From Pseudarthrobacter oxydans (GTDB lineage Bacteria > Actinomycetota > Actinomycetes > Actinomycetales > Micrococcaceae), in contig NZ_CP139438.1 of assembly GCF_034258515.1 (NCBI RefSeq), positions 2,480,001-2,544,000 on the forward strand: a stretch of 64,000 bases of DNA. The letters run 5' to 3'. Within the stretch, counting starts at the first letter, position 1; the number at the start of each line of letters is the position of its first letter. Below the pieces are notes generated by a model. That model made no database searches and was not told where the DNA came from. It was given only the letters and a program-made list of their open reading frames with translations. The position numbers were made by a program, and so were the translations under genes. Below, in pieces: positions 12,302-63,653 of this stretch.

Positions 12302-12647
12302 CTGCCGGCAAAGCACAAGGGACCACGCACAAATCGTGCGGAGTTGTGAGATTCCGATCTACTTGACCCATTCCTCATAGCTGACCCCATTATTTCCGCA
12401 AGTGTTCCTAGGACTCGTGATGGCGACGTTCCACCCTAGTTGACCTTTTCTGCTGCACGGCAGCAAACTATCGCGTAGGCCCGCTGCTGGGCGGCCACCC
12501 AGAATGGGGTGCGCACCGGCGACCGGACCACGGATCGGCACGCAGATGGGCCGCACCCTTGCCTAGGCCGATGTGCCCGAGCCCTACCCGCGGCTGCACC
12601 CAATGTCGGAACAAGGTTCAATCCGAAGTCGTCTAGTCAACTGCGAT
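12302..12647. other. Intergenic stretch at the left edge of the island
   Basis: No gene is supported in these 346 bases. Two direct TGACCC(C)ATT copies lie near 12365 and 12382, and an inverted copy of CCCCATT lies near 12503. They may be remnants of a mobile element but are too short to classify. Confidence 0.4.
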
Positions 12648-30400: not shown

Positions 30401-30431
30401 GTACGCCATTCCACCACATGGTTCCGACAAA

Positions 30432-30450
30432 GGGGACTGCCCCCCGGCTT
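30432..30450. repeat. IS3-type terminal repeat remnant
   Basis: About 19 bases (GGGGACTGCCCCCCGGCTT) repeat the terminal sequence of the IS3 elements at 19527 and 25187 with one or two extra Cs, in the same orientation as 25187. No transposase sequence adjoins it. Confidence 0.55.
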
Positions 30451-35617: not shown

Positions 35618-35747
35618 GCTCCCCTGACCGAAACCCCGCAACTCGCCGGCCACGGGCGAGCCAGGACCGTAAACACACCTCGCAAGGTTGGTAATGTAAG
35701 CCAGTGGTGTCTATATGTACGGAAGCATGTCTCGTGGGGGAACTGGT

Positions 35748-43528: not shown

Positions 43529-46500
43529 CCATCCTGCTTCGCAACGTCTTCGACATTCCTGAACGCGCGGGCGTGGAGGACTATGTCCTCCGCCTCACCG
43601 ACGCCGTCAGCGGCGACGGCGCCCGGCACGCCCTCGACGACTATGTAGTCACGCCATCTTTGGTCGAGGCGTTCGATTCCGCAATGGGACTAGTGTCCAA
43701 CGCGCTCACCACGGGCATCAACCGCGGGGCGTTCCTGACCGGGTCCTTCGGCTCTGGTAAGTCCCACTTCATGGCTGTCCTTCACGCGCTGCTGCGTCAT
43801 GATCCGAAGGCACGTTCAGTAGCGGAGCTGCAGGAAACCGTGGCCCGCCATGACTCCGTCTTGTCCGGCCGGAATATTCTGCCGCTGGCCTTCCATTTCT
43901 TGGACGGCAAGTCGATGGAACAAGTCATCTTCGACGCCTACGTCCGCCATATCCAAGTCGCGCACAATGGTACATCCTTGCCCGCCCTCTTCGCGTCCGA
44001 CGCACTCCTTGAGGACGCCGAGAATCTGCGACAGCAGATCGGAGACGATGCGTTCCTTCAGGGCCTGGGCGGCGGGCAGGTCGACGATGAGTTCGATGAA
44101 TTTTCCGGCTTACTCGGCTCAAGCGGCTGGGGGCTCGACCGCTATAAGACTGCTCTCACCGCGCCGGCTCAGAGCGTAGAGCGACAGTCGCTTGTCAGCG
44201 CCCTGGTCGGGACGTACTTCAAGGCCTACGTACGCTCCGGTGAGTACGTGGATCTGGACACAGGCCTCGCCGCCATGTCTGCACACGCCAAGTCGCTGGG
44301 GTACGACGCCGTCGTCCTGTTCCTCGATGAACTGGTCCTCTGGCTTGCCTTCGGCATGCATGAACCGGAGTTTTTCCGCCGGGAATCGCAGAAGCTGACT
44401 AAATTAGTGGAGGGCTCCTACGGGAGCCTTGAGGCCCCGCTGGTCTCCTTTGTGGCCAGGCAGATGGACCTGCGTAAGTGGTTCGCCGACGCCGGTGCCA
44501 ACGGTGTCCAGCAGGAGGCGCTCGAATCCGCGTTCCGGCACCAGGAGGGACGCTTCGCAAAGATCGAACTGGGCGATGACAACCTCCCGTTCGTCGCCAG
44601 CAAGCGCCTCCTGAAGCCCACGGACGACTCCGCCAGACAGTCCGTAGACGATGCCTTCACCCGGCTGGACCGCAACCCTAAAGTCTGGGACGTGCTGCTT
44701 GACGGGGTCAATTCCGATGACCAGCACCGTGGTTCGGATGAGAAAGCCTTCCGGCTCACCTACCCGTTTGCCCCCGCCTTGGTCTCCACCTTGCGTTCCC
44801 TGGCCAGCGTCATGCAGCGCGACCGCACCGCACTGAAAGTCATGCAGCAGATGCTGGTTGACCGTCGGAACACGATGAGCATCGAGGAGGTCATACCCGT
44901 AGGCGACAGTTTCGATTACATCGTCAAGGGTCAGGCCGGGGCCGCCCTCGACGCGCAGGCTGCGGCGCTCTTCCGATCCGCCACCCAGCTGTACCAGGAC
45001 AAGCTGCTGCCCAAGCTTCTCTCGACCCACCACCTTGCCGCTGCCGACCTGCAGGACCAGTCCCGGCTGACTCCGGCATTTCGCGCGGACGACCGACTCG
45101 CCAAGACGCTACTGCTCTCCGCTGTCGCTCCCAACGTCCCCGCCCTGAAGGCGCTGACGGCGGCCCGGCTCGCTTCGCTGAACCACGGATCCATCGCTTC
45201 CCCGCTGCCCGGCGGAGAGGCCAACATTGTGCTGGCCAAGGTCAAGAACTGGTCCCGTGAGGTGCCCGAAATCCATGTGGGCTCGGAACCGCTGAACCCC
45301 ATCATCCGGGTCCAACTGTCTAATGTGGACTACGAGTCAATCGTGGAGAAAGCCAAAGGCGAAGACAACCCCGGGCGCCAGCGTGAGCTTATCCGCAAGC
45401 TGGTAGCCGAAGGGCTCGGCCTGGAACTCGGCGACCCCGATGCATGGAACGTTTACCGGCACCCGGTGGTTTGGCGCGGCTCCAAACGCGAGGTCGAACT
45501 GGTCTTCGGCAATGTGCGCGATGCAGGCTGGCTCACAGACGAGCATTTCCGTGCAGGGGCCGGCGCCTGGCGCTTCGTCGTCGACCACCCCTTCGATGAA
45601 CAACAGCACACCGCCACCGAGGACATCGAGCGCATCGAAAACTTGCGCGCCCGCAATTTCACCTCGCGAACGGTCGTCTGGCTACCCCGCTTCCTCTCGT
45701 CAGATTCGATGCGTGACTTGCGCCGGCTCGTGGTTCTCGACTGGTTGTTGGAAGGCACCGGAGACCGGTGGAACAGCCACGCCAATCACCTCAGTGAAGT
45801 CGACCGCCAACAGGCCCGCGGCATCCTCGAATCTCAGCAAGCGGCCCTGCGCGAGGGCTTGCTACGTATCATCCAGCAGGCTTACGGAGCAGCGACCCCC
45901 GCACCCGGGGCCCTGCTCGAAGATCCCGCGCACGTGGAGGTCCTGTACTCCCTGGACCCGGAGTACGTGCCGCAGCCCCCTGTCGGGGCCACCCTCGGGG
46001 CAGGTTTCAGGCAGTTAGTGAATCGTGCTTTCGAATCCGCTTACCCGGGCCACCCTCGCTTCGAGCCGGAGGACACCGAGGTCAGGGTTGCCGACCTCAA
46101 GGCGGTTGCCGCCGCGCTTGAGGCCGCCGCTGCCGATCCTGAAGGCCGCGCCCCCTACCCGGGAGATGCCCGGACAGTCCGCAGGATCGCCAACCCTTTA
46201 GAAGTCGGGCTCGCAGGAGAAACTCATTTCCTCTTCGGTGACGGCCGCTTCGGACCGTGGGGTGCCGCGCTTGAGCGAGGGCTCTCCCGCGCCGGCATAG
46301 GCAATGACGACCCCGTCACCGTTTCGAAGCTGCGCGAAATCATCGCCGGAGTCGAACCGGCACATGGGCTGCGCAACGAGGTCTCGGACCTGATCGTCAT
46401 CGCGTGGGGTTTGTTGCGCCAGCGTGCCTGGTTCAACCATGGCGGAGCCTTATCCGCCACCCCACCGCCTGGTTCGCTCCAGCCCAGCATGGAGCTGCGC

Positions 46501-47316
46501 CCGCAGCCGATGCCCACTGAAGAGGAATGGGAGGCCGCCCGGGCCACCACGGGCCGCGTCTTGGGTATCGAGGCTCCAAAGTACCGCACCCCGGCCGCCG
46601 TGGCCACCCTTGCCGACGCGACCCGAACGCTCGCACGCCGCACTGTTACTGATGCTGATGTGCTCGTCAACGCCTTGGAGTCCGCCGCAACAAGACTCGG
46701 GATCGACGGCGGGCCACGCCTTCAACTTGCCCGCGGGATTGCATCTACTCTGGGAGCGCTGCAGCACCAGAACGGTGTCACGCTGATCCAGACCCTGGCT
46801 GGCCTTGATCTCCCGGCTTCGCCAGAGGAAGCGGCAGCATCCCTGGCCCGCGCCAAGGAAGTTGCCGCAGCCGTATCGACCTTCGCGTGGAACCGGCTGG
46901 CTCCCGTCCGTGAAGCTGCCAAGGGGCAAGATACTCGCGCGGATGCCGCCCAAAACATCCTCGACCAGCTCACGACCGCCCTGAGCGGCCATGAGCACGC
47001 CTACGCATGCGCGAAGGCGCTCAAGACCGCCGAAGACGGAATATTTGATTGGCTCGCCACGGCGTCGCCCCCACCTGTCATGCCTCCCATTCCTGTCTCT
47101 CCACCTGTTCCACCGGTGGTTACACCCGAACCTACCGAAGGTAAACCCGAACGTCCGGACGATGTCGACCTTCCGCTCACGCCGCCGCAGTCAGTAACTC
47201 CAGGTGGTGAGTGGCGCACAGCCCGTGGCGGAGACAACGTGGTAGCCGAACTGCAGGAGTTCATCCTTGAAAACCCTGGTCGCCGTGTCGAGGTGCAATG
47301 GAGGATCGTCGGGTGA
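43525..47316 (+). CDS. pglY: BREX type 2 ATPase PglY
   Basis: The 1263-residue protein starts at the ATG overlapping the pglX stop ('MTILLRNVFDIPER'). A P-loop is clear: 'GSFGSGKSH' (about residues 74-82), with 'VVLFLDELVLWLA' as Walker B (about 260-272). PglY belongs to the DUF6079-type large ATPases, homologous in role to BrxC of type 1 systems. A proline-rich linker ('PPPVMPPIPVSPPVPPVV') precedes the C-terminal 70 residues. It overlaps pglZ. Confidence 0.94.
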   Translation: MTILLRNVFDIPERAGVEDYVLRLTDAVSGDGARHALDDYVVTPSLVEAFDSAMGLVSNALTTGINRGAFLTGSFGSGKSHFMAVLHALLRHDPKARSVAELQETVARHDSVLSGRNILPLAFHFLDGKSMEQVIFDAYVRHIQVAHNGTSLPALFASDALLEDAENLRQQIGDDAFLQGLGGGQVDDEFDEFSGLLGSSGWGLDRYKTALTAPAQSVERQSLVSALVGTYFKAYVRSGEYVDLDTGLAAMSAHAKSLGYDAVVLFLDELVLWLAFGMHEPEFFRRESQKLTKLVEGSYGSLEAPLVSFVARQMDLRKWFADAGANGVQQEALESAFRHQEGRFAKIELGDDNLPFVASKRLLKPTDDSARQSVDDAFTRLDRNPKVWDVLLDGVNSDDQHRGSDEKAFRLTYPFAPALVSTLRSLASVMQRDRTALKVMQQMLVDRRNTMSIEEVIPVGDSFDYIVKGQAGAALDAQAAALFRSATQLYQDKLLPKLLSTHHLAAADLQDQSRLTPAFRADDRLAKTLLLSAVAPNVPALKALTAARLASLNHGSIASPLPGGEANIVLAKVKNWSREVPEIHVGSEPLNPIIRVQLSNVDYESIVEKAKGEDNPGRQRELIRKLVAEGLGLELGDPDAWNVYRHPVVWRGSKREVELVFGNVRDAGWLTDEHFRAGAGAWRFVVDHPFDEQQHTATEDIERIENLRARNFTSRTVVWLPRFLSSDSMRDLRRLVVLDWLLEGTGDRWNSHANHLSEVDRQQARGILESQQAALREGLLRIIQQAYGAATPAPGALLEDPAHVEVLYSLDPEYVPQPPVGATLGAGFRQLVNRAFESAYPGHPRFEPEDTEVRVADLKAVAAALEAAAADPEGRAPYPGDARTVRRIANPLEVGLAGETHFLFGDGRFGPWGAALERGLSRAGIGNDDPVTVSKLREIIAGVEPAHGLRNEVSDLIVIAWGLLRQRAWFNHGGALSATPPPGSLQPSMELRPQPMPTEEEWEAARATTGRVLGIEAPKYRTPAAVATLADATRTLARRTVTDADVLVNALESAATRLGIDGGPRLQLARGIASTLGALQHQNGVTLIQTLAGLDLPASPEEAAASLARAKEVAAAVSTFAWNRLAPVREAAKGQDTRADAAQNILDQLTTALSGHEHAYACAKALKTAEDGIFDWLATASPPPVMPPIPVSPPVPPVVTPEPTEGKPERPDDVDLPLTPPQSVTPGGEWRTARGGDNVVAELQEFILENPGRRVEVQWRIVG

Positions 47317-50069
47317 ACGGCCAGGCAGTCGTTCAGGGCACGGTGAGCACCGCAGTTGTCCGTTCCCTTATTTCCGCGGCCCGCAAGCACGGCACTCAGC
47401 GCGTGATCGGTCTCCGTGCAGTCCCGGACGCCGATGCTGAACGACGCTTTGCGGATTCCGGGGAACGAGTACACGTACTGCCGTGTGTTTCGTCGCTGGC
47501 CATCCGAGACGCGTTGCGCAACCGTGCCGGTAATGAATGGCTCGTGATCCTGACGGACCGGCCGGAAGAGGATCTGGGGGCCGGAATCCTTGGGCACTTT
47601 GCGAACCAGAGGCTTCAGACACCAGGTGCGTGGGAAGCACTCAAGGAACGTTTCGGTGCTGATCGAATCGACCGCCCGCTGTCCACTCTCAAGCAGCGGC
47701 TGCCAGTGGCACAAGGCCTATTGCGCATCACCCCGGATGAAGGATGGCCTGCAGCTCCCGGAGCAGTCCTGACCATCGACCATGCCTTCGCTTCAGTCGC
47801 GGAGCGGCAGCTGGCACTGCAGCGTGGTCCGGTAGATGGCCTCAGCGTCCTCGAATGGACCATGCGGACCGATGCCACAGATCGTATGGCAGACCTGCGC
47901 GAGTTTGGCGGTGACGAACTTGCTGACGCAGTTCTTCAATGGCTGACCGACCGCGCAGGGCTGGCAGGGAAGCCGCTCCTGAGGTTTCTTCTCACCGGCC
48001 GCGCCGCCGAAGCAGTGCCGGTCGGCATCGCCTTGAACGTGCTTACCGAGACTGGGGGGCGGACAGCCCAGGACCGGCAGCTCAGCGAGCTTGCGCTGGC
48101 ACGGCTCGAGCACCTCTGGGCCGGTTCCGCGGAACCCATTACCCCCTCCATGCTGGCGGCACTCGGTAAGTCAGCCCGCAACGTTGTCGAAGCGCAACTG
48201 GAGGATCCGGCTCGCTGGCAGGAGGCCCACGCGGCCTTGCAGGCGGCCGACAGATTACTCACTAAGATCCAGGCTTCCAGCTTGGGCCGAGATTCGCAGC
48301 TGCTCCCCGCGGGACTCACCGCGATGCTACAACGGCTCGCGGAAATGCTACGTTCTTTCCCTGAGTCCGGGATCGACGCCGTGGAAAAGGCCTGGGCAGC
48401 GGCCGAAGACCACCGTCTGGCATATCCGCTACGAGGCAACGCCCAGGATCCGCGCGTGGCCCCATTCCACGCTGCCGTCAGATTGGCCCGCTGGCTCACC
48501 GGCAAAAACACTCTTCCCAACGGTTTCATCGATGCCGTGCATTTGCATGCTCACGTCCACGCTTGGGTCGACGCCGCCTACAACGACGTGGCTGCCGGCG
48601 TCAGCGACCAACTCTTGGGCGAAGGTCTCGCCACCATCCTGCGACTCACTGAGCAACGGCGCCACGGCCATGACCGAGAATTTGCGCGGCTGCTGGCCAC
48701 GTCGACCTCCTTGGACGAAGGCAGAGCGACAGGCCACTTGGACGGCGCAGGAGACCCCGTGTGGCATCTGGAGCGCTTGCTGCCCTCAGTGGTTCTGCCG
48801 CTCGCCCGAGCAAAGAACACACTCCTCCTGGTTCTCGACGGCATGAGCGCCGCCAGCGCCGCGGAACTCTCCTCCACCGTGCTCCACGGGAACGAGGGCT
48901 GGGCCGAGGTTATTCCGGCTGCATCGGAACGCCGTGGGTCCGCCGTGGCCGTGCTGCCAACGCTCACGAACCTCAGCCGAGCTTCCTTGTTCAGCGGCGA
49001 GTTGACGTCGGGAGGGCAGTCCCGCGAATTGTCCGGCTTCGCCGCAGTGACAAAGGCCGGCGGGATCGCCCAATCACAGCTCTTCCACAAGGCGCCCCTG
49101 GATTCGTCACGTCCTGGATTGGCCCTGCAGGACGACATTTCCGTTGCCATCGCCGACCAACGGACCCCGCTCGTGGCCTGCGTTCTGAACACCATTGATG
49201 ACGCCCTGGACAAGAGCGACCCGGCCGGAACCACGTGGACGCCTGACACCGTCCGGCACCTGCGACCGTTGCTATCCGCCGCGATGGCCGCCGGACGCAC
49301 CGTGGTCATGACGTCCGATCACGGGCACATCGTGGAGCGTCGCCGCGGGGAACTGCGCGCGTTCGGTGAAGCGAGCAGCGCACGGTCCCGGCTGCCGGAG
49401 ACCCCTATTGGTGAAGATGAGGTTCTTGTCCAAGGACGCCGGGTTCTCGCCGAGGGAGGGCGCGCAGTACTCGCCGTCGATGAAACCCTGCGCTACGGAC
49501 CGATCAAGGCCGGATACCACGGGGGCGCTTCCCCCGCAGAGGTTGTCATTCCGGTCGTTGTCTTAATTCCAGGCGACAACGTCCCCGGCGGGTGGAAGCT
49601 GGCGCCGTCACAGGAACCGCTGTGGTGGTCGGTTGTGGCCACCGGCGCCGCGGTGCGCCCGGCGATCCCGGGTGCCGGGCTGACGAAGACCGCCAAGGAC
49701 AACACTCCATCGATGCTCGACATCCTCGACTCCCCAGACCAGATGCCCGCTGCGCCGCGGTTGGGCGCCGCCGTGGTGTCCTCAAGCATGTACAAGGCGC
49801 AGAAAGGGATCGCGGGCCGACTCGCAGTCTCCGATAACCAAGTCGCTTCGCTGCTCGATGCGCTGGCCGCCGGGCCCGGGACCCGCTTGGCCAAGGAGGC
49901 TGCCGCCGTCGTCCTCCAGGTCGCACCCGCGCGCATGGATGGCGCGGTGGCCCAACTGCAGAAGCTGCTCAACGTCGAAGGCTACGGGGTGTTGCGTGTC
50001 GACGGTTCCATGCTGGTCCTGGACGCACGGCTGCTCCGCGAACAGTTCGGGGTGACAGATCGTGGCTGA
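47313..50069 (+). CDS. pglZ: BREX type 2 alkaline-phosphatase-fold protein PglZ
   Basis: The 918-residue protein contains a PglZ domain of the alkaline phosphatase superfamily: 'LLLVLDGMSAASAAELS' (about residues 508-524, metal Asp), 'VVMTSDHGHIVERR' (about 664-677) and 'IKAGYHGGASPAEVVIPVVV' (about 730-749). PglZ is one of the two hallmark proteins of every BREX type. The GTG at 47313 overlaps the pglY stop (GTGA) and has GGAGG eight bases upstream, which beats an ATG at 47298. The stop overlaps brxD by eight bases. Confidence 0.95.
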   Translation: MNGQAVVQGTVSTAVVRSLISAARKHGTQRVIGLRAVPDADAERRFADSGERVHVLPCVSSLAIRDALRNRAGNEWLVILTDRPEEDLGAGILGHFANQRLQTPGAWEALKERFGADRIDRPLSTLKQRLPVAQGLLRITPDEGWPAAPGAVLTIDHAFASVAERQLALQRGPVDGLSVLEWTMRTDATDRMADLREFGGDELADAVLQWLTDRAGLAGKPLLRFLLTGRAAEAVPVGIALNVLTETGGRTAQDRQLSELALARLEHLWAGSAEPITPSMLAALGKSARNVVEAQLEDPARWQEAHAALQAADRLLTKIQASSLGRDSQLLPAGLTAMLQRLAEMLRSFPESGIDAVEKAWAAAEDHRLAYPLRGNAQDPRVAPFHAAVRLARWLTGKNTLPNGFIDAVHLHAHVHAWVDAAYNDVAAGVSDQLLGEGLATILRLTEQRRHGHDREFARLLATSTSLDEGRATGHLDGAGDPVWHLERLLPSVVLPLARAKNTLLLVLDGMSAASAAELSSTVLHGNEGWAEVIPAASERRGSAVAVLPTLTNLSRASLFSGELTSGGQSRELSGFAAVTKAGGIAQSQLFHKAPLDSSRPGLALQDDISVAIADQRTPLVACVLNTIDDALDKSDPAGTTWTPDTVRHLRPLLSAAMAAGRTVVMTSDHGHIVERRRGELRAFGEASSARSRLPETPIGEDEVLVQGRRVLAEGGRAVLAVDETLRYGPIKAGYHGGASPAEVVIPVVVLIPGDNVPGGWKLAPSQEPLWWSVVATGAAVRPAIPGAGLTKTAKDNTPSMLDILDSPDQMPAAPRLGAAVVSSSMYKAQKGIAGRLAVSDNQVASLLDALAAGPGTRLAKEAAAVVLQVAPARMDGAVAQLQKLLNVEGYGVLRVDGSMLVLDARLLREQFGVTDRG

Positions 50070-51414
50070 CGTCTCGCCTCGCAGGCGCCGTGAAGTGATC
50101 GACGCGTTGCGGCGCGGCACGGTTCCTTCCAACGGGCTCGATCTGCTGGCCGTCGGTCTGGAGCGTTTCCAGCGCGCCGTCGACGAGGAACTCGAGACGG
50201 TCGCAGGTAGTGGTGCCGTGGTCAAGGCTGTCCGTGGTGAGTACGGCACGGGTAAGACGTTCTACACCCGGCATCTTGCGGAGAAGGCGCTCAAGAAGGG
50301 TTTCGCCGCCGCCGAAGTGCAGATTTCCGAGACTGAGTCCCCGCTGCATAAGCTTGAAACCGTCTACCGGCGGATCACCGAATCGCTGCGCACTGCTTCG
50401 GTGGCGCCCAGCGCGTTCCGTTCCGTCCTGGATGCTTGGCTGTTCACCCTTGAGGACGATGCCATCGCCGCAGACCCCGCGCTGGCTACCGCTTCAGCGG
50501 CTGAGTTAGCGGCTGCCGCGGATGAGTTGCTGGACCGGCGATTGGCCGAGGTCAGTGCGAAGACACCTGCCTTTGCCCAGGCACTCCGCGGTTACCGTGC
50601 GGCCGTAGCCGCTGGAGATGCTGTGGTCGCGGACGGGCTTGCCGCATGGCTCGGTGGGCAGCCTCATGTGGGCGCTGCGGCCAAGCGCGGGGCCGGCATC
50701 CGTGGCGATCTCGATCACTTCGGTGCCTTGGGATTCCTGCAGGGTCTGCTGCTGATCCTGCGCGACGCCGGGCATCCCGGCCTGCTGGTGGTTTTGGACG
50801 AGGTCGAGACCCTGCAACGAATGCGCTCGGATGTGCGGGACAAAGCCCTCAACGCGCTGCGCCAGCTCATGGACGAAGTGGATTCCGGTCGGTTCCCAGG
50901 GCTGTATCTGGTTCTGACTGGAACACCGGCTTTCTTCACTGGCCCATCGGGAGTGCCCCGCCTGGCGCCCCTTGCACAGCGCTTGGCGACGGATTTCGGC
51001 ACCGATTCGCGCTTCGACAACCCCCGGGCCGTACAGATCCGTTTGGCCGGCTTTGACCGTGAAGCGCTTGAAGCGTTGGGTATCAAGGTACGGGACCTTT
51101 ACCTTCTCGGTGCCGACGCTCCTGACCGTATCCGCCAGCTCGTCGACGATCCCTACGTCACTGAGCTGGCCGGCGCGGTGACCGGTGGTCTGGGCGGCAA
51201 GGTGGGCATCGCGCCAAGGATCTTCCTCAAAAAGCTCATCAGTGACGTACTAGACCGCGTTGACCAGTTCGCTGACTTCGATCCGCGCCAGCACTACGCT
51301 TTAACCCTGGCCCGCGAGGAACTAAGCCCGGAGGAACGCAACGCCGTTGGCGGCACCGTCGGAGTGGCCGGCGGCTATGTGGCAACCGCGGACGACGTCG
51401 AACTCAACCTATGA
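50062..51414 (+). CDS. brxD: BREX ATP-binding protein BrxD
   Basis: This 450-residue P-loop ATPase has Walker A 'GEYGTGKTF' (about residues 57-65) and Walker B 'GLLVVLDEVETLQRM' (about 239-253), followed by a sensor-like 'LYLVLTGTPAFF'. It matches BrxD, the ATPase paired with a BrxHI helicase in type 2 and some other BREX loci. It starts with GTG inside the end of pglZ, and its stop overlaps the helicase start (ATGA). Its molecular task in defence is not settled in the literature I know. Confidence 0.93.
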   Translation: MADVSPRRRREVIDALRRGTVPSNGLDLLAVGLERFQRAVDEELETVAGSGAVVKAVRGEYGTGKTFYTRHLAEKALKKGFAAAEVQISETESPLHKLETVYRRITESLRTASVAPSAFRSVLDAWLFTLEDDAIAADPALATASAAELAAAADELLDRRLAEVSAKTPAFAQALRGYRAAVAAGDAVVADGLAAWLGGQPHVGAAAKRGAGIRGDLDHFGALGFLQGLLLILRDAGHPGLLVVLDEVETLQRMRSDVRDKALNALRQLMDEVDSGRFPGLYLVLTGTPAFFTGPSGVPRLAPLAQRLATDFGTDSRFDNPRAVQIRLAGFDREALEALGIKVRDLYLLGADAPDRIRQLVDDPYVTELAGAVTGGLGGKVGIAPRIFLKKLISDVLDRVDQFADFDPRQHYALTLAREELSPEERNAVGGTVGVAGGYVATADDVELNL

Positions 51415-53543
51415 CGCAGCGTGTGGGTTTCGAGGCGCTGAACAGCGTGGTCCAGCACCATATCGCCAACACGCTGGGCTGGGGCAGCCTGCGGCCGTTG
51501 CAGTCAGAGTCCATTGGTCCCGTACTGGGCGGCAACGATTGCCTGCTCCTGGCTCCCACAGCTGGCGGTAAGACCGAAGCAGCCTTGTTCCCGTTGCTGA
51601 CCCGCATGGCTGAGGATGGCTGGTCCGGCACCTCCGTGCTCTACGTATGTCCGTTGCGCGCGCTGCTGAATAACTTGGAGCCTCGGATCGCTTCCTACGC
51701 TGGCTGGCTCGGACGCACCGCGGCGGTCCGGCACGGCGACACCACTGCAGGCGCCCGCAAGCGTCAGGTCTTTGACCGACCGGACATCCTGCTGACGACC
51801 CCGGAATCGCTCGAGTCCATGCTGGTCTCCACCCTGGCGGATCCGCGACAACTCTTTGCAGATGTACGTGCCATCGTCGTCGACGAGGTCCATGCCTTTG
51901 CCGGTGACGATCGGGGTTGGCACTTCTTGGGAGTTGTGGAACGCATTTCTAAGCTGTCTGGCCGTCCCCTCCAGAGGATCGGACTGTCCGCGACGGTAGG
52001 CAATGCGCCGGAACTCTTGTCTTGGCTGCAAGGTAGCAATCGGATCTCGGAGAAACCTGCGTCCGTCATTGCTCCGGACGGTGGCTCTGCGGCCTTACCG
52101 GAGATGCAACTCGACTTCGTGGGGAGCGACCTGAATGCCGCCAAAGTGATCGCTGCCCTGCATCGCGGCGAGAAACGCCTCGTCTTCGCAGATTCGCGAC
52201 GAACGGTGGAAAAGGTGTCGCTGGGGCTGCGCGACCTTGAGGTGGAGACTTTCGTTTCGCATTCATCCTTGTCCGTGGACGCGCGCAGGCAGGCTGAAAC
52301 AGCATTCTCGCAGGCCCGCAATTGCGTCATCGTCTCCACTTCTACCTTGGAACTCGGCATCGACGTAGGCGACCTCGATAGGGTCGTCCAGATCGGTGCA
52401 CCGCGCACCGTGGCGTCGGTATTGCAGCGGCTCGGCCGGACCGGCCGCCGACAGGGAACCGAGCGGAACATGCTGTTCCTGTCCACGGACGACGCGCAGT
52501 TCCTTCGCGCCTGTGGCCTACTGTTGCTCTGGTCTGAGGGCTATGTGGAGCCTGTCACTCCCCCGCCGACTCCTTTGCACGTGGCAGCACAACAACTTTT
52601 GGGGCTGACACTCCAGGAACGGCGAATCGGGGCCAATACTTGGGACGAGTGGTTCTCTGGGCTCGAGCTCGCCTCTCCAGTCGAGTGGCAGAAGATTGCC
52701 GCCTGGTTGGTGAAAACGGGACACCTCGATTCCGACCAGGGAATGCTCTTCATGGGTCCTGAGGCTGAGCGTAAGTACGGGGGCATCCACTACCGGGACC
52801 TCATGGCCGTGTTCACGGCTGACCCGCAGGTAGTCATTCTGCACGGGCGCGAGGAAATCGGCTCCGTTGACCCAATGGTCCTCCAGCGCAAAGTCGATGG
52901 TCCACGCCTCCTTACACTCGGAGGCAGGGCTTGGCAAGTGAACTACGTCGATTGGAAACGCCACCGCGCCTACGTTGAACCATCGGCAAACGCCGCGGAC
53001 TCCAAATGGTCAAGCATGCCGCAGCCGGAGTCCTATGCCCTGAGCGATGCAACGCGGCGGGTGCTTCTCGGGGCCACTCCCGCCGGCGTCTTGCTATCCA
53101 AAAGGGCTGCGACCAAGTTGGGCGAGCTGCGGGAGGAGTATTCCCAGCGGGTACTGGATGGTTCCACAGTTTTAGTCCGCGAGCCTAACGGGAGACTTCG
53201 CTGGTGGACTTGGGCCGGCGCCCGCGCGAACGCCGTGCTGGTCGCGGGGTTGCTCGACCTGGCACCTGACTTACTGGACGAATCGCGGGCCCACAACAAC
53301 TGGCAAATCGGATTACGCGGCGACACCACCACTCCGGCTCTGACTGAGGCCATGAGGCAGATCGTGCTATTGCTCAAAGACGAGGCGCCGAGCCTACTTC
53401 CACGGGTTGACGACCGAGCCCTCAGAACGCTGAAGTTTGCTGAACTTCTTCCTGCTTCATTGGCCGTGAGCACCCTTGCTGAGCGAAGCAGCGATCATGC
53501 GGGTGCTTCGACGGTCGCCGCAAGACCCGTTGCCTCCGTCTAG
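51411..53543 (+). CDS. brxHI: BREX Lhr-like DEAD/DEAH helicase BrxHI
   Basis: The 710-residue superfamily-2 helicase has a Q/Walker A region 'LLLAPTAGGKTEAAL' (about residues 43-57), motif Ia 'YVCPLRALLNN', DEAH-type box 'VVDEVHAF' (about 158-165), motif III 'LSAT', and domain 2 with 'VFADSRRTVEK', 'VSTSTLELGIDVGDLD' and 'RLGRTGRR'. A winged-helix/Lhr-type C terminus follows. It ends the six-gene BREX operon. No strong terminator follows directly; a hairpin at 53794 may serve. Confidence 0.94.
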   Translation: MTQRVGFEALNSVVQHHIANTLGWGSLRPLQSESIGPVLGGNDCLLLAPTAGGKTEAALFPLLTRMAEDGWSGTSVLYVCPLRALLNNLEPRIASYAGWLGRTAAVRHGDTTAGARKRQVFDRPDILLTTPESLESMLVSTLADPRQLFADVRAIVVDEVHAFAGDDRGWHFLGVVERISKLSGRPLQRIGLSATVGNAPELLSWLQGSNRISEKPASVIAPDGGSAALPEMQLDFVGSDLNAAKVIAALHRGEKRLVFADSRRTVEKVSLGLRDLEVETFVSHSSLSVDARRQAETAFSQARNCVIVSTSTLELGIDVGDLDRVVQIGAPRTVASVLQRLGRTGRRQGTERNMLFLSTDDAQFLRACGLLLLWSEGYVEPVTPPPTPLHVAAQQLLGLTLQERRIGANTWDEWFSGLELASPVEWQKIAAWLVKTGHLDSDQGMLFMGPEAERKYGGIHYRDLMAVFTADPQVVILHGREEIGSVDPMVLQRKVDGPRLLTLGGRAWQVNYVDWKRHRAYVEPSANAADSKWSSMPQPESYALSDATRRVLLGATPAGVLLSKRAATKLGELREEYSQRVLDGSTVLVREPNGRLRWWTWAGARANAVLVAGLLDLAPDLLDESRAHNNWQIGLRGDTTTPALTEAMRQIVLLLKDEAPSLLPRVDDRALRTLKFAELLPASLAVSTLAERSSDHAGASTVAARPVASV

Positions 53544-55105: not shown

Positions 55106-57208
55106 TCAGCTGTTAGGCCCGTTGCGGGCTGCGCGCTGGTCGACGGGGCAGGCCGTGCATCCCCCGGCTCGGAGCCGGTTGCGGAACATCATGTGTTTTT
55201 CGTGTCCGAAGGGGCACCGCCACCCTCGAAGGCAGCTGCCGGGAAGGACTTCGGAAGCTGTCAGCCCGCCGTTCAGGTCAGGGGCCCAGTCTCGGGCCAG
55301 ACCAGGGTACTGGGTGGCCAAGTCGTTAAATCCCGGCCAGAGTTTACGGTGCGAGCAGTAGGGGCAACCACACTTCTTGGGCCCGGTGCGGTTGTTTATT
55401 GGAGCCGGATAGTCGTGTCCCTTTGGGCAGAGCCAGTAAATTAGATCTTCGCTCCCGAACGTCACCTGTTGGGGCGTTCTTTCTCCGTTCTTAGTAGGAT
55501 GCCATTCCGCTGCGATGTCGGGATGGGTCGTTCCGAGGTCATTGATTCCTGCTTCAAGGCGCCGGCCCGAGCAGATGGAGCATCCTTGGCCGCTTTTTCG
55601 CTTCTGAATCTTTTTCCAGTAGGTGTGGCCGTTGGGGCACAGCCAGGCAAATTTGTAGCCTGAGCCGCTGATGACGTGGTCGGGTCGGACGTCTCCGTTT
55701 AGGTCCGGATGCCATTCCGCGGCCAAGGCAGGGTGGGTCGTTGCTAGATCGTTAGTGCCTGCCAGGACAGCAAAGTTTGCGCACACTGCGCATCCGGAGC
55801 CGTTGCGGGCGCGGTTAGCAACGGTGGCAGGGTACCGGTGCCCCTTGCGGCAGATCCAGTGCACCATCTTGCCGCTACCCGACACCACGTCCCCTGGTTC
55901 TAATACATTGCGCGTCAGGTCCCATTCCACGGCCAGCCAGGGGTGGCTCTCAGCTATCGAGTTATACCCGGCTAAAGCCGTCAGCCCGGAACATACTGAA
56001 CATAAAGGATTACCAAGGGCAAGGGCTTTGACCACCTTCGAGCAAGACCGCCTGATGACATGACCCGCTGCGCAGATGAAAACTGTTGGTTCCTTGGCCC
56101 CTCTGACTGCGGCTCGGCGTTTCGAACAGCTGCCTGCGACAACATACAGCTCCGAAAATTCCGGCCAAGACGTTCCCCTCGACAGTTCAAGCTGGTCCAG
56201 GTAACGGCTGAATGGCTCCAGAGGGCGCTGTGTCAGTCCCTGAGCCGGATTCCACCAGTTGACGTGAATGAGCGGACGAAATTCGTCCCCTAGACGTTCG
56301 CCTTGAACCTCCTGCCGCACCCACAAGAATGTTGGTCGCAGCAAAAGCCAGAGCGCATCTCTGAGAGCGGCGTCGGCAGCGGGTACTGCACGCAGGACAT
56401 GGGTGTCCAAGAAGCTGCGGGCCTGCGCATAGGTTCGGCGGGGATTGAGCAGAGCCTGCAGGAATGCCGGTTGGCTCAGCATCCAGGCAATCGACACCAC
56501 GGCCGCATAGTTTTCCAGGCTAACGCGCCCGGTGCCGGTCCCAGATATTTGATGGGCCACCACGTCAACGAGTTCGGCTACGAGCGCAGGCGGCGCGGCG
56601 CCTCGGCGGAGGAGCTCCCGGTAGCAGCGTTCGGCCGCGAGCACTTCGTCCGAGACGAAAACCAGCGGAGGCGGCAGCCCAGGACCGGTCGTTGCGCTCT
56701 CGGGGCGTCGAAGCTTCGCAGCCTCCGTGCCGGGTCCCGTCCAGAGACGGTGCTTTAGGCAGCAATGTTCCAATGCGTGGGGACTTTGTTCCACAACCCA
56801 GCCGTGGGCGCAGAAAGGACATAGGAATCGCGGGGAGTGGGCGTGGCTACCCGCTAGGTCCCTTTGTCGTTCGAAGAAGCCTGATGGCACGCCGGCGCGA
56901 GTCTCTAGGAAGATCTCAAGTGCGTTTCTTACGTCCCGGCGTCTTATTGTTCTGGCTTGGGTTCGAGGCGCGAAGGACAATGCGAGTTCTCTCAGTGTTC
57001 CGGTGCTGAGGAAGTTCGTTTCCTCCAGTCGAGCCGTATAACTGGCTGCCGTTTCCAGCCGGCGGATCCGTGCGTGGAGAGGCAATCTTCCCCTCATGTC
57101 CCCTATCGTCGGGTGGGTCTTTGCCACATCCGGCGAGGTAAGTATTCCCCAGCGGTCCCTTGCGCCGGTCTTTTGCCGGTTGGTGCCGATTCCCTGGTCC
57201 GGATGCAA
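55106..57208 (-). CDS. TniQ-type target-selection protein fused to five treble-clef zinc units
   Basis: In this 700-residue protein residues about 40-160 look like a TniQ/TnsD N terminus ('LPLHARIRRLETAASYTARL', then zinc ligands 'CPFC' at 130-133 and 'CCLKH' at 149-153). From 379 on, five units with C-x2-GH-x(n)-C-x2-C follow at about 379-406, 453-476, 524-546, 594-618 and 665-687. Each of the last four is preceded by 'HP.LA.EW....NG' spacers; this is the DUF4379 treble-clef pattern. TniQ proteins choose the target site in Tn7-like transposition, so the array may read DNA or a partner. The start is TTG 57208 with a strong AGGAGG six bases upstream. It lies 60 bases after tnsC. Confidence 0.85.
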   Translation of the reverse strand: MHPDQGIGTNRQKTGARDRWGILTSPDVAKTHPTIGDMRGRLPLHARIRRLETAASYTARLEETNFLSTGTLRELALSFAPRTQARTIRRRDVRNALEIFLETRAGVPSGFFERQRDLAGSHAHSPRFLCPFCAHGWVVEQSPHALEHCCLKHRLWTGPGTEAAKLRRPESATTGPGLPPPLVFVSDEVLAAERCYRELLRRGAAPPALVAELVDVVAHQISGTGTGRVSLENYAAVVSIAWMLSQPAFLQALLNPRRTYAQARSFLDTHVLRAVPAADAALRDALWLLLRPTFLWVRQEVQGERLGDEFRPLIHVNWWNPAQGLTQRPLEPFSRYLDQLELSRGTSWPEFSELYVVAGSCSKRRAAVRGAKEPTVFICAAGHVIRRSCSKVVKALALGNPLCSVCSGLTALAGYNSIAESHPWLAVEWDLTRNVLEPGDVVSGSGKMVHWICRKGHRYPATVANRARNGSGCAVCANFAVLAGTNDLATTHPALAAEWHPDLNGDVRPDHVISGSGYKFAWLCPNGHTYWKKIQKRKSGQGCSICSGRRLEAGINDLGTTHPDIAAEWHPTKNGERTPQQVTFGSEDLIYWLCPKGHDYPAPINNRTGPKKCGCPYCSHRKLWPGFNDLATQYPGLARDWAPDLNGGLTASEVLPGSCLRGWRCPFGHEKHMMFRNRLRAGGCTACPVDQRAARNGPNS

Positions 57209-57268: not shown

Positions 57269-58321
57269 TCATTTCCCGTCGTCCATGTGGGCGAGATCGG
57301 ACTGAAGCCAGTTTTCGCTTGCATCGATGTCCAGGGGGATACTCTCAAGAACCTCGCGTGTAATTCTTTCGTCGTCCGCTTCGGCATCGCTCGAAATCAG
57401 CCACTGCGCTGCCCCTGTCAGAAGGCGTCCGAGGCTGCCGATGGAGCCGCGTGTCCGATCATGGAGGTATTGCGCGTCGGCGGCCAGGTCCCCTTCGTGG
57501 TGGTTGAAGAGGAGCAATTGGTTTTCAAAGGACTCAATGATCCGCTTCCAGAGCGCCTTCTCGGTCGTTGTGGCCCTCATGTACCTGTGCAGTACCTCGG
57601 CCGTGAACCGTCCTCTTATCTGCTGTCCACGGTCGCCTGTGAGCAACGGCCCCAGATGGATGTTTATGCCGGCGTACAGGAACGTTGCGGGAACCCTGTT
57701 CGAAAGGGATTTCAGAACGTCGACGCTCTCGCCGTTGCCGTTGTTGACAGTGCTGAGGTTGTGAATTTCATCAACGACGACCAGCACCGTTCTGCTCTTT
57801 TGGAGTTGGCCTACAACTGTTGTCAGAAGCGATTCCAGGGTGTCCCGGCTCCTTATGGGCAGCCCCAGGAACTGTGCGAATCGTCCCACGACCGCTTTGC
57901 CAGTGCAGCCTGCAGGTACTTCGATATAGATGACGGGTTTGTGGTCGAGTTCCATGAACTGGGGGTACTGAAGTGCATAACGTCCGTAAATCGTCTTCAT
58001 AGCTGCAAGGCACGCCGTCGTTTTGCCCATGGTCGACTCGCCCGAGACGAGAACACCGAGGCGCCCTGCCACACGGGATCGGTTCTGCAGGACGGCAAGC
58101 TGGGCCTTTCGCACCACGGCTTTAAGCTGAGGCGTCGAAATGACAAGGTCGGCCCCCAGATAATCGAGCCGTCGGTTGTTGAACGGCTCCCGCTCCGTTG
58201 GTCCCATCCCAGCCCACGATGAGGCGTCGGGCAATTCCGGCAATTCCCCGGGCCGACTGAGTATGTTGGTTAGGCCTTCCCACTGATCAAGGACCTCAGG
58301 AGGGCGCTCCGAGAAGAACAT
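57269..58321 (-). CDS. TnsC/TniB-like AAA+ transposition regulator
   Basis: The 350-residue AAA+ ATPase bridges the target selector and the transposase. Walker A 'SGESTMGKTT' is at residues 93-102, Walker B 'VLVVVDEIHNL' near 178-188, a sensor Asn/Thr region is in 'ATFLYAGINIH', and an Arg-rich 'GQQIRGRF' follows. It overlaps the stop of the TnsB-like gene by one base (TGATG). Length and motifs agree with the TniB family found in Tn7- and Tn5053-like elements. Confidence 0.93.
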   Translation of the reverse strand: MFFSERPPEVLDQWEGLTNILSRPGELPELPDASSWAGMGPTEREPFNNRRLDYLGADLVISTPQLKAVVRKAQLAVLQNRSRVAGRLGVLVSGESTMGKTTACLAAMKTIYGRYALQYPQFMELDHKPVIYIEVPAGCTGKAVVGRFAQFLGLPIRSRDTLESLLTTVVGQLQKSRTVLVVVDEIHNLSTVNNGNGESVDVLKSLSNRVPATFLYAGINIHLGPLLTGDRGQQIRGRFTAEVLHRYMRATTTEKALWKRIIESFENQLLLFNHHEGDLAADAQYLHDRTRGSIGSLGRLLTGAAQWLISSDAEADDERITREVLESIPLDIDASENWLQSDLAHMDDGK

Positions 58322-60339
58322 CAGAGGTACTCCTGATTTGGGTCAAAAATACCGACTGTCGGAACTTCGATGTCGGGGCTTTCGGCCGGCGCGAGCAGAT
58401 CAGGCCGCTGTACAACGAGGTCAGGCATCCCGGCGTCGTGGGCAAGCTTTTGCGCCGCCGCCTGCCGTTGCTCGGCAGCCTTTGTTTTCGCCTTTTCAGT
58501 CCGGGTGGCCTTCAGGACATTTTCGATCACACGCCCGGATTGCGGGTCGCCCTTGACGCCCAGTTCCGCGGCGACCTCCCGGGCTTTTTGCCTGAATTCA
58601 GCAGAGAAGGGCTTTCCGAAGGCGTCCTGGTTCATCCAGTCGCACTGAATCCACGACTGGTCCTCGGGGTCCTGGACCCAGACAGCCGCGGGATTGTTCG
58701 GATCCGTCCGCACGGCCCATTTGCGCTTATGGCCAGTCACATAGGACGGCGAAAGACGATAGCGCTGCAGATACGGGGAGTCGTATCTGCGATAATGAAT
58801 CTGGATGCCGTCCATCTGGATGGTCCGGTACTCAATCGGCATCATCGCGATGTAGTCAGCCGCCGTCAACGGGATTGGTACGAATCCCGTGGCGTCGAAC
58901 ATAGCCATGTACATCGAGTTTGGCGTATGGAGCACACCAGGACAGAGAGGGTCCCGGAGTCCATCCTGGGGCCTGTTCTGCCAGACCACCGCGACCCACC
59001 GCTCAAAAAGTTCGGCCAGCGTATAGATGTCCAAAAGTCCGGCATCTTTCTCAGGGGATTTCCCGCGCCGGCTTACCTCTCCCCCGGTGTATCCGGGCAG
59101 GAACTGGGCGAAGAGGGTTTTGATGGCATCGAATGCCCGTTCTACATTCGGCTTGTCCGTTGGTGTCCGAATGGAGCACTCTGTAATGCTGATGCCAAGT
59201 CCTTGGCACGCGGAGCGGAACGTTGTCGAGAGGTAGTCAGAGCCGTTGTCCGTCACGATCCGCGCCGGAACGATGAACGGCCTGGTCGTGTCGTACTTTC
59301 CGACCTCGTCCGCGCTCAGGCCAGCTGCCCATGGCATCTCCGCGAGCTCAAATTCATTGAACGCCGCGTCCGCAGGGCGCAGCGGGCGTGGAACTACGCA
59401 CTGGGCGAGCATGCAGGAGAGGTCGAAGCCTTTGGTCGCAACGCGTCTGATGCCGGTCGAGATGATGCTTCGCGTGGCCTTATCCAGGAAGATGACCAGC
59501 TTCACCCTTTGCGGCTTCCCATCGTCGTCGAGCACAAGGATGTCGAAATCAGACGTGTCGACCTGCACTTCATGGCCAGGCATGATTGGCGGGCGGGAAC
59601 TGTACATGCGGGCAGGAGCATTCGCGGCGCTCCGCCTATTCGCAGCATTGCCGAATGCGTATTTGTTTTTCCCAAGAAACGCCTCATATCGCCACAGACT
59701 TGTGCGCGGCGGGACCTTGACGTCCTGGCCCGGATAGTCCTTGAGGAGACGTTTTTCCAGCCGCAGCGAAAACCGTTCGCGTGAGCCCGTCGACGAGTCC
59801 CGTTCTGCTGCAATAACGCTGATCAGCGCATCTCTGACCCTCGGATCCAGCTTCCTGAATGGGTCATCGTGCCGTGAACCGCGACGGTCGATCAACCCCG
59901 CCTCCCCGGCTTCACGGTAGGCGTCGAGTTTTCGCCGAAGCGTGCGCGCAGAGCAGGACCAGCCAAGGCTGTTCAGTTCCTTAGCTTTCAGATCGATACG
60001 GTCGGCCAGCGAAAATCGTGCGGGATCATACTCGGGGCGGGGTTCCGTGTCGGGGGTCGGGGGCGTGCCGTCTATCAACTCCCGGAGGTGGAGGGCCAGC
60101 AGGTCGATGTGCTTGCGTTCTTTATCGGAGATTGTGTCCAGTATCGCCGGACCGGCGTAGTCCGTGGTGCCTGCTCCCCCGGGGATGTCCGTCATCCTTT
60201 GGACCAGTTCAGTGATGTGGAGTGCGCAGTATTCCTGATCATCCAGATTCTTCAGTTTCAGATTTCCGCGGTTCAGGCCGGTGATGACGTAGTTTCCGTC
60301 GTCGAGTCTGATCTCTTGGCCAATTCGCACGCTATACAT
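58321..60339 (-). CDS. TnsB/TniA-like DDE transposase (Mu-type integrase core)
   Basis: The 672-residue transposase joins the transposon 3' ends to target DNA. N-terminal helix-turn-helix regions ('LGWSCSARTLRRKLDAYREA' near 125-144) bind the ends. The rve/DDE core has D261 in 'VQVDTSDFDILVLDD', D364 in 'IVTDNGSDYLS' and E400 in 'TDKPNVERAFDAIK'. A Mu C-terminal beta barrel and a C-terminal tail that would contact TnsC follow. It overlaps the TnsA-like gene by eight bases. All catalytic residues are present, so it should be active. Confidence 0.95.
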   Translation of the reverse strand: MYSVRIGQEIRLDDGNYVITGLNRGNLKLKNLDDQEYCALHITELVQRMTDIPGGAGTTDYAGPAILDTISDKERKHIDLLALHLRELIDGTPPTPDTEPRPEYDPARFSLADRIDLKAKELNSLGWSCSARTLRRKLDAYREAGEAGLIDRRGSRHDDPFRKLDPRVRDALISVIAAERDSSTGSRERFSLRLEKRLLKDYPGQDVKVPPRTSLWRYEAFLGKNKYAFGNAANRRSAANAPARMYSSRPPIMPGHEVQVDTSDFDILVLDDDGKPQRVKLVIFLDKATRSIISTGIRRVATKGFDLSCMLAQCVVPRPLRPADAAFNEFELAEMPWAAGLSADEVGKYDTTRPFIVPARIVTDNGSDYLSTTFRSACQGLGISITECSIRTPTDKPNVERAFDAIKTLFAQFLPGYTGGEVSRRGKSPEKDAGLLDIYTLAELFERWVAVVWQNRPQDGLRDPLCPGVLHTPNSMYMAMFDATGFVPIPLTAADYIAMMPIEYRTIQMDGIQIHYRRYDSPYLQRYRLSPSYVTGHKRKWAVRTDPNNPAAVWVQDPEDQSWIQCDWMNQDAFGKPFSAEFRQKAREVAAELGVKGDPQSGRVIENVLKATRTEKAKTKAAEQRQAAAQKLAHDAGMPDLVVQRPDLLAPAESPDIEVPTVGIFDPNQEYL

Positions 60340-61120
60340 TTTCGTTCTTTCGGAGAAGGGTGTTCCAGGACAACGGGCGTGCTAAGTCAGCGCGGATCTC
60401 TCGTGTCCATATGAGGTTGTAGACAAAGTGGATGCTGAAGGCAGGAGCTCCTGAACTTAATGCCCGAGCTACGTCCAGCAACCTGGCGGGCTCGGAAACG
60501 AGGTCAACCACGAGTTCCTGAATCTCCTGGGGGGCTTTGTACCGGGGGTTCCGGTAGGCTGCAAGCCACTCCAAGTTGTGGCGTATGGGCAATCCAAGGT
60601 CGCCCAGGATTTGATATGGCCAGCCGATGCGCTGGCAAAGGTCTCTGGTCTTTGTGAATGTTTCCGCTGCTTTGGCGTCGATGAGATTCTGCGGCCGGAC
60701 GTCATAGAGGGTTTGGGTTCCGTCCCATTGAACAGTGAAGAAGTCGGGATAGTGGCTTGTTCCGTCCGCAAAGGAGATGCACATCGGCTGGGTCGATATG
60801 CCTACGATGTCCTGCGAGAAGTCCAACCACATCAGTGCTGAGTACTCCGTGAGGGACTCGTACCACAGGTGCTGACCTGTGCGGGAAAACCAGTAATAGC
60901 CCTCATAATTCCGCCGCCGAGGATACTTGATCCCTTGCCGGAACACTGTCGCCTTATGAAGGTCCAATCCTGTGGCCCTGCTGTCCGCAGGAGCCACGTG
61001 TCCCACACCCTCGGCGTCGATCCAATGGAAGACGTCCCTGCCAAATGTCTTAGGTGGCGCCTGAGCGCGTACGGAAAGCCGCCTATTTCCGGGGAAGCTC
61101 ACGAAGACCACTCTTCGCAT
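60332..61120 (-). CDS. TnsA-like endonuclease subunit
   Basis: The protein has 262 residues from the ATG at 61120; an alternative TTG at 61186 would add 22 residues and also lacks a good ribosome site. In Tn7, TnsA cuts the 5' ends so that transposition is cut-and-paste. The restriction-like core is visible as 'YESLTEYSALMWL' (E88), 'HYPDFF' (D126) and 'TLYDVRP', where the usual catalytic lysine is Arg142. A C-terminal helical part would contact TnsC. It is the first gene of the tnsA-tnsB-tnsC-tniQ operon. Confidence 0.85.
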   Translation of the reverse strand: MRRVVFVSFPGNRRLSVRAQAPPKTFGRDVFHWIDAEGVGHVAPADSRATGLDLHKATVFRQGIKYPRRRNYEGYYWFSRTGQHLWYESLTEYSALMWLDFSQDIVGISTQPMCISFADGTSHYPDFFTVQWDGTQTLYDVRPQNLIDAKAAETFTKTRDLCQRIGWPYQILGDLGLPIRHNLEWLAAYRNPRYKAPQEIQELVVDLVSEPARLLDVARALSSGAPAFSIHFVYNLIWTREIRADLARPLSWNTLLRKNENV

Positions 61121-61543
61121 GAAAACGAAGTCGTCCGGTTCCTGGTTGGGTTCATCCAAACCACCCGCAAATCTTTTTGATCTCAAACGCCCTATGCAAT
61201 GAGAACGGCATGCGCGGCGGGCGAGCGAACCACGGGAGCCGACTTACGCCTACGTCCGCAGGGCGTGCGTCCGCCCGGCCGACGTATCGGATGAATAGTC
61301 GAGAATGGACCGACTGAAAGGGAGTGGGCAACGCAGGAAAGGAATCCTGCCGTCATTCGCGACATCTTGGAAAGGTGGTACGGCTAGCGTGCGACCTTCA
61401 TCACGCTCAGCGACCGCCAAGGGCTGCTGGTTAAGTGCACTGAAATGATTCGCCTACATGTCCATTATACGGCTGGGCAATAAGGTTGTACCGCCTACGT
61501 ACATAACTCTCTCTCTTTGCCTATGGGGAGTATCTTCATTGTC
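61121..61543. promoter_or_regulatory. Divergent control region with three CGCCTAC(G/A)T repeats
   Basis: The 423 bases between tnsA and the HTH gene hold no gene. The 9-mer CGCCTACGT occurs at 61247-61255 and 61492-61500, with a CGCCTACAT variant at 61451-61459; the last two are 41 bases apart. They could be operators for the neighbouring HTH protein or transposase-binding sites at the element end. Confidence 0.55.
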
Positions 61544-62089: not shown

Positions 62090-62297
62090 CAACCCCTCAA
62101 CGGGCGACTCGCGGACTTCCAAGAAAGCTATCTCCCCAAGGCAAGATGTCCCGCCTAGTTACTGGGCCGACCACGTCCGACCGCTCGAAGACTGAGGACT
62201 TGCCTTGCTGCTCTTCCACACCGGAAGGATTGGATCCGAATGTAGCCATGCCCAACCTGGGCTGAACCCAGTACCCACATCTCCGTATGCTGGACGG

Positions 62298-63068
62298 ATG
62301 TCATCTTCTCCCCTGGCAGTCTTCGGTGACTGGCATGGCAACGCCGGCTGGGCGCTGACCTCCATTAGGTCAGCTGCCCGCGAAGGCGTCCGCACTGCCA
62401 TTCACGTGGGAGACTTTGGATTTGATTGGCCGGGTGCCAAACGGGGACGGTATGAGGCGAAGCTGAACAAGTACCTGATGGATCTGGGAATCACCATTGT
62501 CGTCTCCGGGGGAAATCACGACAACTGGGACACTCTGGAAAAGCTCCTCGTCGAAGACGACGGCTTGGCAACCATCCGATCAAACGTCCGGGTCTTGCCC
62601 AGAGGCAGTCGAACCACGATCGAGGGCCTTGCTGTCGGTGGCTTAGGCGGCGCGTTTAGCGTCGATTACGAGCACAGGACCAACGGGAAGGACTGGTGGC
62701 CCAATGAAGAACCCACTCGCGAGGAAGCCGAAGCACTCATCGCCGGCGGCCCTCTGGACATCCTGATTTCCCACGACGCGCCTGCAGGCGTTCCGCTGAC
62801 AGGAGACTTCCAACTCAGCCCAGAACTGATTGAGAAAGCGAACAAAACTCGCGTCCTGCTCAGAGAGGTCGTCGATTCGTTGGCCGTGCCTCATCTGTTC
62901 TGTGGCCACTGGCATCAGCGGCGCATACACCAGCTGGTACATCCGAATGGAATGGTTACGAGAGTGGACGTGCTCAATATGGAGAACTCCCGTCATGGGA
63001 ACGGCGTCCTCGTGTGGCCTGGCCAAGTTCCTCTGCGTATTGACCCGCTTGAAATCCGGAACGCATAG
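62298..63068 (+). CDS. Calcineurin-like metallophosphoesterase
   Basis: The 256-residue cytoplasmic protein has the full metal-site set: 'VFGDWHGN' (residues 8-15), 'IHVGDFGFDWPG', 'SGGNHDNW' (about 74-81), 'LISHDAPAG' and 'LFCGHWHQRRIH' (about 196-207). The ATG at 62298 is preferred over an upstream start that adds a non-conserved stretch. No signal peptide is seen. Phosphodiesterases of this type are common accessory genes; the substrate is unknown. Confidence 0.9.
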   Translation: MSSSPLAVFGDWHGNAGWALTSIRSAAREGVRTAIHVGDFGFDWPGAKRGRYEAKLNKYLMDLGITIVVSGGNHDNWDTLEKLLVEDDGLATIRSNVRVLPRGSRTTIEGLAVGGLGGAFSVDYEHRTNGKDWWPNEEPTREEAEALIAGGPLDILISHDAPAGVPLTGDFQLSPELIEKANKTRVLLREVVDSLAVPHLFCGHWHQRRIHQLVHPNGMVTRVDVLNMENSRHGNGVLVWPGQVPLRIDPLEIRNA

Positions 63069-63101
63069 TGAAGTGCTTCCCCGCCGTCGCTGATTTAGAG
63101 T

Positions 63102-63518: not shown

Positions 63519-63653
63519 CGCGAACCAGCCTCCGATAAAGCCAAATCCCTTGTCCTTGGCATTACGAAACCACTCGGCATTAGCTCGGGGCACGGTTTTC
63601 CGCGTCGTCGGTGAGGTACCAGAGCCGTGTCAGGCTGCGGCTACACTCTCACC

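Follow-up and report, generated by a model that had tools for sequence, protein, structure and literature searches.

The locus examined here raises the question of how a Tn7-like transposon finds its place in the chromosome when the protein in the position of its target selector ends in an array of DUF4379 zinc units. It lies in Pseudarthrobacter oxydans contig NZ_CP139438.1, of which a stretch of 64,000 nucleotides (positions 2,480,001 to 2,544,000), referred to below as the window, was analysed. The answer that we consider probable is that the protein in question, here called Q, is a selector of the TniQ type and that its DUF4379 array recognises the 3' end of nrdF as DNA.

The Q gene occupies positions 55106..57208 of the reverse strand. 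Its frame was described in advance as intact and its ribosome site as strong, and both hold: 700 codons are open from a TTG start with zero internal stops, and AGGAGG stands six bases upstream of the TTG. Close homologues, however, start near an in-frame ATG at 57097 (P0001, 663 aa), and translation of Q may begin at either codon; residue numbers below refer to the 663-aa form. The five-unit DUF4379-type zinc array that had been claimed for the C-terminal half is readily recognised, with a Pfam match of Q to DUF4379 (PF14311) at 182.8 bits (cut-off 24.5), four stretches passing individually, and five C-x2-GH...C-x2-C ligand sets starting at residues 341, 414, 485, 555 and 626, i.e., at spacings of 73, 71, 70 and 71 residues (about 71 is typical). 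The array covers approximately residues 338-657 (55127..56086, reverse strand), and its first unit lacks the stretch that usually precedes the ligands. In a 16-row alignment of proteins that share the architecture of Q (array-Q proteins, about 30% identity) the zinc ligands are mostly invariant, one Cys of unit 4 being missing in several relatives, and zinc binding by the array is predicted from these conserved ligands. The TnsD C-terminal family PF15978 is absent from the Pfam matches of Q at E<=1, PF14311 standing there instead, and the same scan gives no nuclease family.

The N-terminal part, approximately residues 1-270 as judged from alignment and profiles (56288..57097, reverse strand; the boundary is approximate), had been proposed to be TniQ/TnsD-like. 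The Pfam TniQ family gives zero matches to Q at E<=1, and PF06527 matches nothing in the whole genome, in a search in which the control genomes gave no match either. The similarity was found by profile. A profile built from 16 array-Q N-termini detected eight array-less proteins (E 7e-12 to 3e-19), every one of which is placed after tnsA, tnsB and tnsC; six of the eight match Pfam TniQ with E from 1.5e-5 to 0.06, all below the 27-bit cut-off, and the other two have no match to it. When an array-Q profile of seven proteins (six close relatives and P0014) was compared with these eight by hhalign, the probability was 98.6% and E 6e-16, as against 0.1% and 0.2% in controls with TnsC. The alignment of both groups has in common an E...R...N pattern and C-x2-C...C-x2-H-x2-W; the N-terminal part of Q has an invariant C93-x2-C96...C113-x2-H116. 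The structure predicted for the N-terminus is of poor quality (pLDDT 62), and about 70 residues between it and the array (approximately 268-341) are modelled with low confidence. By remote profile homology the N-terminus of Q is TniQ-type, and we use this term in place of PF06527 membership because neither Q nor its array-less relatives reach the Pfam cut-off. The similarity put forward in the preliminary description is thus detectable, remotely and by profile, with Pfam silent.

Upstream of Q and on the same strand lie, as had been anticipated, genes for a tnsC-type AAA+ ATPase (57269..58321; PF05621 TniB, 59.1 bits, cut-off 22.4), a tnsB-type transposase (58321..60339; PF09299, 36.3 bits, cut-off 21.7) and a tnsA-like endonuclease (60332..61186; NF033179, 164 bits, cut-off 110), Q being the fourth gene in the order tnsA-tnsB-tnsC-Q. 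The cargo includes a type 2 BREX system on the forward strand (35715..53543) composed of pglW, a 1187-aa ORF in the pglX position (39965-43528), pglY, pglZ, brxD and a helicase gene. A TmtA-like defence protein is encoded at 25589-30469 (PADLOC, 235 bits). Viewed by eye, several small companion genes recur beside operons of this kind, among them those for a metallophosphoesterase (a frequent companion, here at 62205..63068 on the forward strand), an HTH protein, a WWQIVA membrane protein and two short proteins, MDAAEW... and MVQEL...; these regions are 54613-55005 and 61517-63977 of the window and loci L013, L017, L019, L038 and L042.

The element that carries the operon was delimited by alignment to a genome of the same species without it (G457), in which neither the array-Q protein nor the array-Q alignment has a match. 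It begins at 12345, fills the rest of the window and continues to 70507 outside it (58,163 bp), with the target-site duplication GGAGT at 12340..12344 and again at 70508-70512. Its left end, TGTGAGATTCCG... (12345..12374, forward strand), and its right end, TGTGAGGTTCCG..., form an inverted pair; the tips are TGTGAG, and 15 of 20 end bases are alike between the two ends. The ends of the element and its target gene were not part of the preliminary description, the right end and nrdF being situated 6.5 kb beyond the window; there the flank of the element is the end of nrdF, whose stop codon (70553-70551) is 38 bp from the duplication. The same nrdF gene in G457 is followed by a different insertion of 8,250 bp with the duplication ACCCC, in which no tns gene was seen, a TnsB match being absent across that genome. 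Clustered tnsA, tnsB and tnsC, inverted TGT...ACA ends that contain repeated motifs, a 5-bp duplication, and insertion in one orientation at a fixed site downstream of a conserved gene are the features of a Tn7-like transposon; judged by its sequence the element is one, and its transposition is predicted.

Whether other TniQ-DUF4379 fusions exist, and whether their carriers share a target, were points that the preliminary description left to a comparison of relatives. A search with residues 1-370 of Q, in which the best 7994 word-sharing candidates were scored, gave 14 proteins at E<=1e-3, Q itself included; PF14311 is present in 13, and the remaining one is a 429-aa fragment without it. Q is matched in 8 of 395 family genomes and in 11 of 206 genus genomes, and one match per set was dropped from the array-Q group (G141, array-less; G445, a false hit). 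The alignment A3, with the best five candidates taken per genome, matches 39 of the 206 genus genomes in a mixture of array-Q, array-only and TniQ-only proteins. Array-Q genes are found in 13 family genomes (G000, G190, G296, G311, G344, G366, G388, G410, G424, G427, G466, G484 and G515), the one in G484 being broken into two frames, and outside the family in G848 and G690. With G484 left out, the order tnsB-tnsC-Q is conserved in 12 of 12 family genomes; a tnsA tag is missing in three of these (G296, G311 and G427). The unit model matches each array-Q protein 4 to 7 times. Array-Q genes also occur in close pairs in G296, G466 and G848 (L019, L038, L151-L152).

Within the family the relatives do share a target, and it is the 3' end of nrdF. 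All ten array-Q operons of the family that are on a single contig with nrdF begin 1,989 to 48,926 bp behind its stop codon and are co-oriented. Of 12 array-Q genomes viewed by eye, 11 have a TGT[G/A]A tip, followed by repeats such as CTAGTTGGC, at 5-48 bp behind the nrdF stop, and the other (G366) has repeats without the tip. Paired ends with equal 5-bp duplications enclose the operon in six of the 12, namely in G000, G311 (45,826 bp), G424 (40,377 bp), G515 (67,850 bp, a weak pair at 12/20), and G388 and G410, where the pairs are spread across two contigs; convincing paired ends were not found in G190, G344, G366, G427, G466 and G296. The nrdF 3' end itself is 88-100% conserved per 30-bp block in 14 genomes. 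That nrdF is the insertion site of the family's array-Q elements is well supported. At L057 (G344), L060 (G515) and L063 (G410) ends of differing subtypes follow nrdF in series, as if piled up, and another DUF4379 protein is encoded within an nrdF-inserted element of G515 (contig 1, 999029-999832).

Operons whose Q has no array are located elsewhere: the six measured are all more than 200 kb from nrdF (207,906 bp in G366, 247,781 and 253,151 bp in G427, 262,966 bp in G164, 403,442 bp in G376 and about 254 kb in G141). G366 and G427 contain both kinds, with array-Q operons at nrdF and their own array-less operons far from it. Fisher's exact test on 10:0 versus 0:5 (G141 left out) gives 0.0003, in a table whose rows are related by descent; when 36 Q proteins are arranged in a tree, the presence or absence of the array takes three changes to explain, one also being possible. 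Transposon ends behind nrdF are more widespread than array-Q genes. Of the 206 genus genomes, 56 have TGTGA 1-30 bp past an nrdF-like stop (none at 1-4 bp, 16 at exactly 5 bp) and two have the mirror motif TCACA, and a tip with repeats was recognised in 17 of the 19 TGTGA flanks opened. Only eight of the 56 have an array-Q gene. Among 18 nrdF-tip genomes without it, 14 have no TnsB match (E<=1e-25) and four have one distant from nrdF. Many of these ends are accounted for by remnants, by non-autonomous elements or by another selector, which could also use the nrdF site, since most genomes with a tip lack the array-Q gene. Small elements with paired duplications were seen in the nrdF flanks of G409 (L107, 3,308 bp), G478 (L125, 1,295 bp) and G457 (L051, 8,250 bp), three genomes without a TnsB match. 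G141 has a minimal Tn7-like element without an array (L024, 11565-16644, about 5 kb; ends TGTCCTGTCTC..., duplication GTTGT), which adjoins a second similar end.

DUF4379 arrays also exist apart from TniQ. Six of the ten TniQ-free array proteins scanned reach the cut-off of DUF559, which we take to be a Vsr/PD-(D/E)XK-like family. In the class, 14 of 394 genomes match A3 at E<=1e-20, and of three opened, G848 and G690 encode, respectively, two Q proteins and one with a TniQ part and an array beside tns genes, the third (G735) having an array-only protein. The occurrence of arrays on unrelated proteins far from tnsABC had been named as an observation that would count against a selector; the first half of it is true of the nuclease-like proteins, and the second was seen around the G735 protein, the one case scanned, with no tns genes in 35 kb. 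We take the array to be a portable module, and we do not read its presence on nuclease-like proteins as refuting the role of Q as a selector. Both array-Q modules of G848 are away from nrdF; their target is probably another one, because nrdF sits on another contig and has no transposon end in the first 150 bp behind it.

From these data the following mechanism can be proposed. The TniQ-type domain of Q would serve as an adaptor that touches TnsC, and the treble-clef units of the array would bind double-stranded DNA at the end of the nrdF coding sequence, which is conserved, with neighbouring stretches of it read by several units; the share of each unit in this is inferred. TnsC would thereby be brought to the nrdF 3' end, and TnsA and TnsB would insert the element past the stop codon, at a distance between a few and a few tens of bp, duplicating 5 bp and always turning the same element end towards nrdF, which would leave the essential gene intact. 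It is also conceivable, though we regard it as somewhat doubtful, that DUF4379 arrays in general are modular DNA readers, in which each unit, about 71 residues long, reads a few bp, four to seven units make up a site, and an exchange of arrays gives a Tn7-like element a new home. If this were the case, the array-Q pair of G848 would be an example of natural retargeting.

Q could recognise nrdF by other means, its array being bound to RNA or to a protein landmark (the nrdF transcript or a host protein) and the DNA being read by another factor or by the region that joins the TniQ core to the array. Trypanosome mitoribosome proteins are the closest relatives of the array with a solved structure, and this would suit RNA binding too; the low-confidence residues 268-341 leave room for an extra DNA-binding fold, and the TnsD of Tn7 makes use of host proteins. 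We consider this unlikely, since many genomes have the insertion point fixed at a few bp past the stop, which points to DNA, and since arrays stand beside nuclease domains. Related arrays, of CapR-like domains, on EDxHD/Vsr nucleases of phage group II introns are, in the excerpts of PMC12350094 (2025) that we used, taken to be DNA-binding specificity modules, although a DNA-binding result for DUF4379 arrays was not found in the literature searched.

The link between array and site may, alternatively, be one of descent, the nrdF 3' end being a general hot spot and the array doing something else. The numerous nrdF ends in genomes without a detected array-Q gene, the clustering of array labels on the Q tree, and G141, where nrdF is followed by an end and the array-less Q lies elsewhere, are all compatible with this. 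We find it distinctly improbable, because Q proteins about 30% identical keep both the array and the site in 12 genomes, G366 and G427 hold their array-less operons away from nrdF in the same genomes, and the orphan ends may be remnants. The least probable explanation by far is that the N-terminus is not of the TniQ type and that Q is an independent array protein, nuclease-like or regulatory, which simply follows tnsC. The missing Pfam TniQ match and the PHROGs, which pair the array region with phage endonucleases, could be read in this way; against it are the hhalign result with its near-zero controls, the C-x2-C...C-x2-H-x2-W motif common to both groups, a gene order conserved in the 12 tagged family genomes (tnsA not being found in three) and the lack of a nuclease family among the Pfam matches of Q. 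We thus retain the selector that reads nrdF DNA with its array.

In the open literature we found no work joining TniQ with DUF4379 and none joining nrdF with Tn7-like elements, and a description of this selector C-terminus together with the nrdF home site was not found in the literature searched. The locus thus adds to Tn7-like transposons a selector architecture, the TniQ-type core with a treble-clef array, and an attachment site, the nrdF 3' end, and it provides DUF4379, a domain of unknown function, with a concrete candidate DNA target. Diverged arrays with one common target, together with others that lack it, are material for asking whether there is a readable code, and there is practical interest in inserting 40-68 kb at a specific site.

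Among known systems, the TnsD proteins of Tn7, whose target is glmS, and of CASTs are among the closest: like Q, they are encoded by the fourth gene after tnsABC and have a TniQ-type core, and, as with the Q element, insertion takes place at a fixed site just past an essential gene, with a 5-bp duplication and the same end facing the gene. They differ from Q in the gene that is targeted, nrdF in place of glmS, and in the C-terminus, since the long C-termini of TnsD proteins fold, according to the part of PMC10293859 consulted, into several HTH domains and not into a DUF4379 treble-clef array. The TnsF protein of Tn6022, as presented in the same part of that paper, is likewise a separate route of a Tn7-like element to a fixed target and contains several zinc fingers, but it is a stand-alone protein related to tyrosine recombinases and its target is comM. 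A 2021 survey of cargo genes (PMC8649781), in the sections available to us, reports an uncharacterised TnsB clade, mostly from Actinobacteria, and also reports defence cargo including BREX; the Q element has BREX cargo too and is a candidate member of that clade. The words nrd, nrdF and ribonucleo are absent from the main text of that survey. The EDxHD/Vsr homing endonucleases, finally, contain three to five DUF4379/CapR-like units of about 60 residues, which are thought, in the excerpts of PMC12350094, to confer DNA specificity on a mobile element as we propose for Q, with the difference that their arrays steer a nuclease whereas the array of Q is fused to a TniQ-type adaptor.
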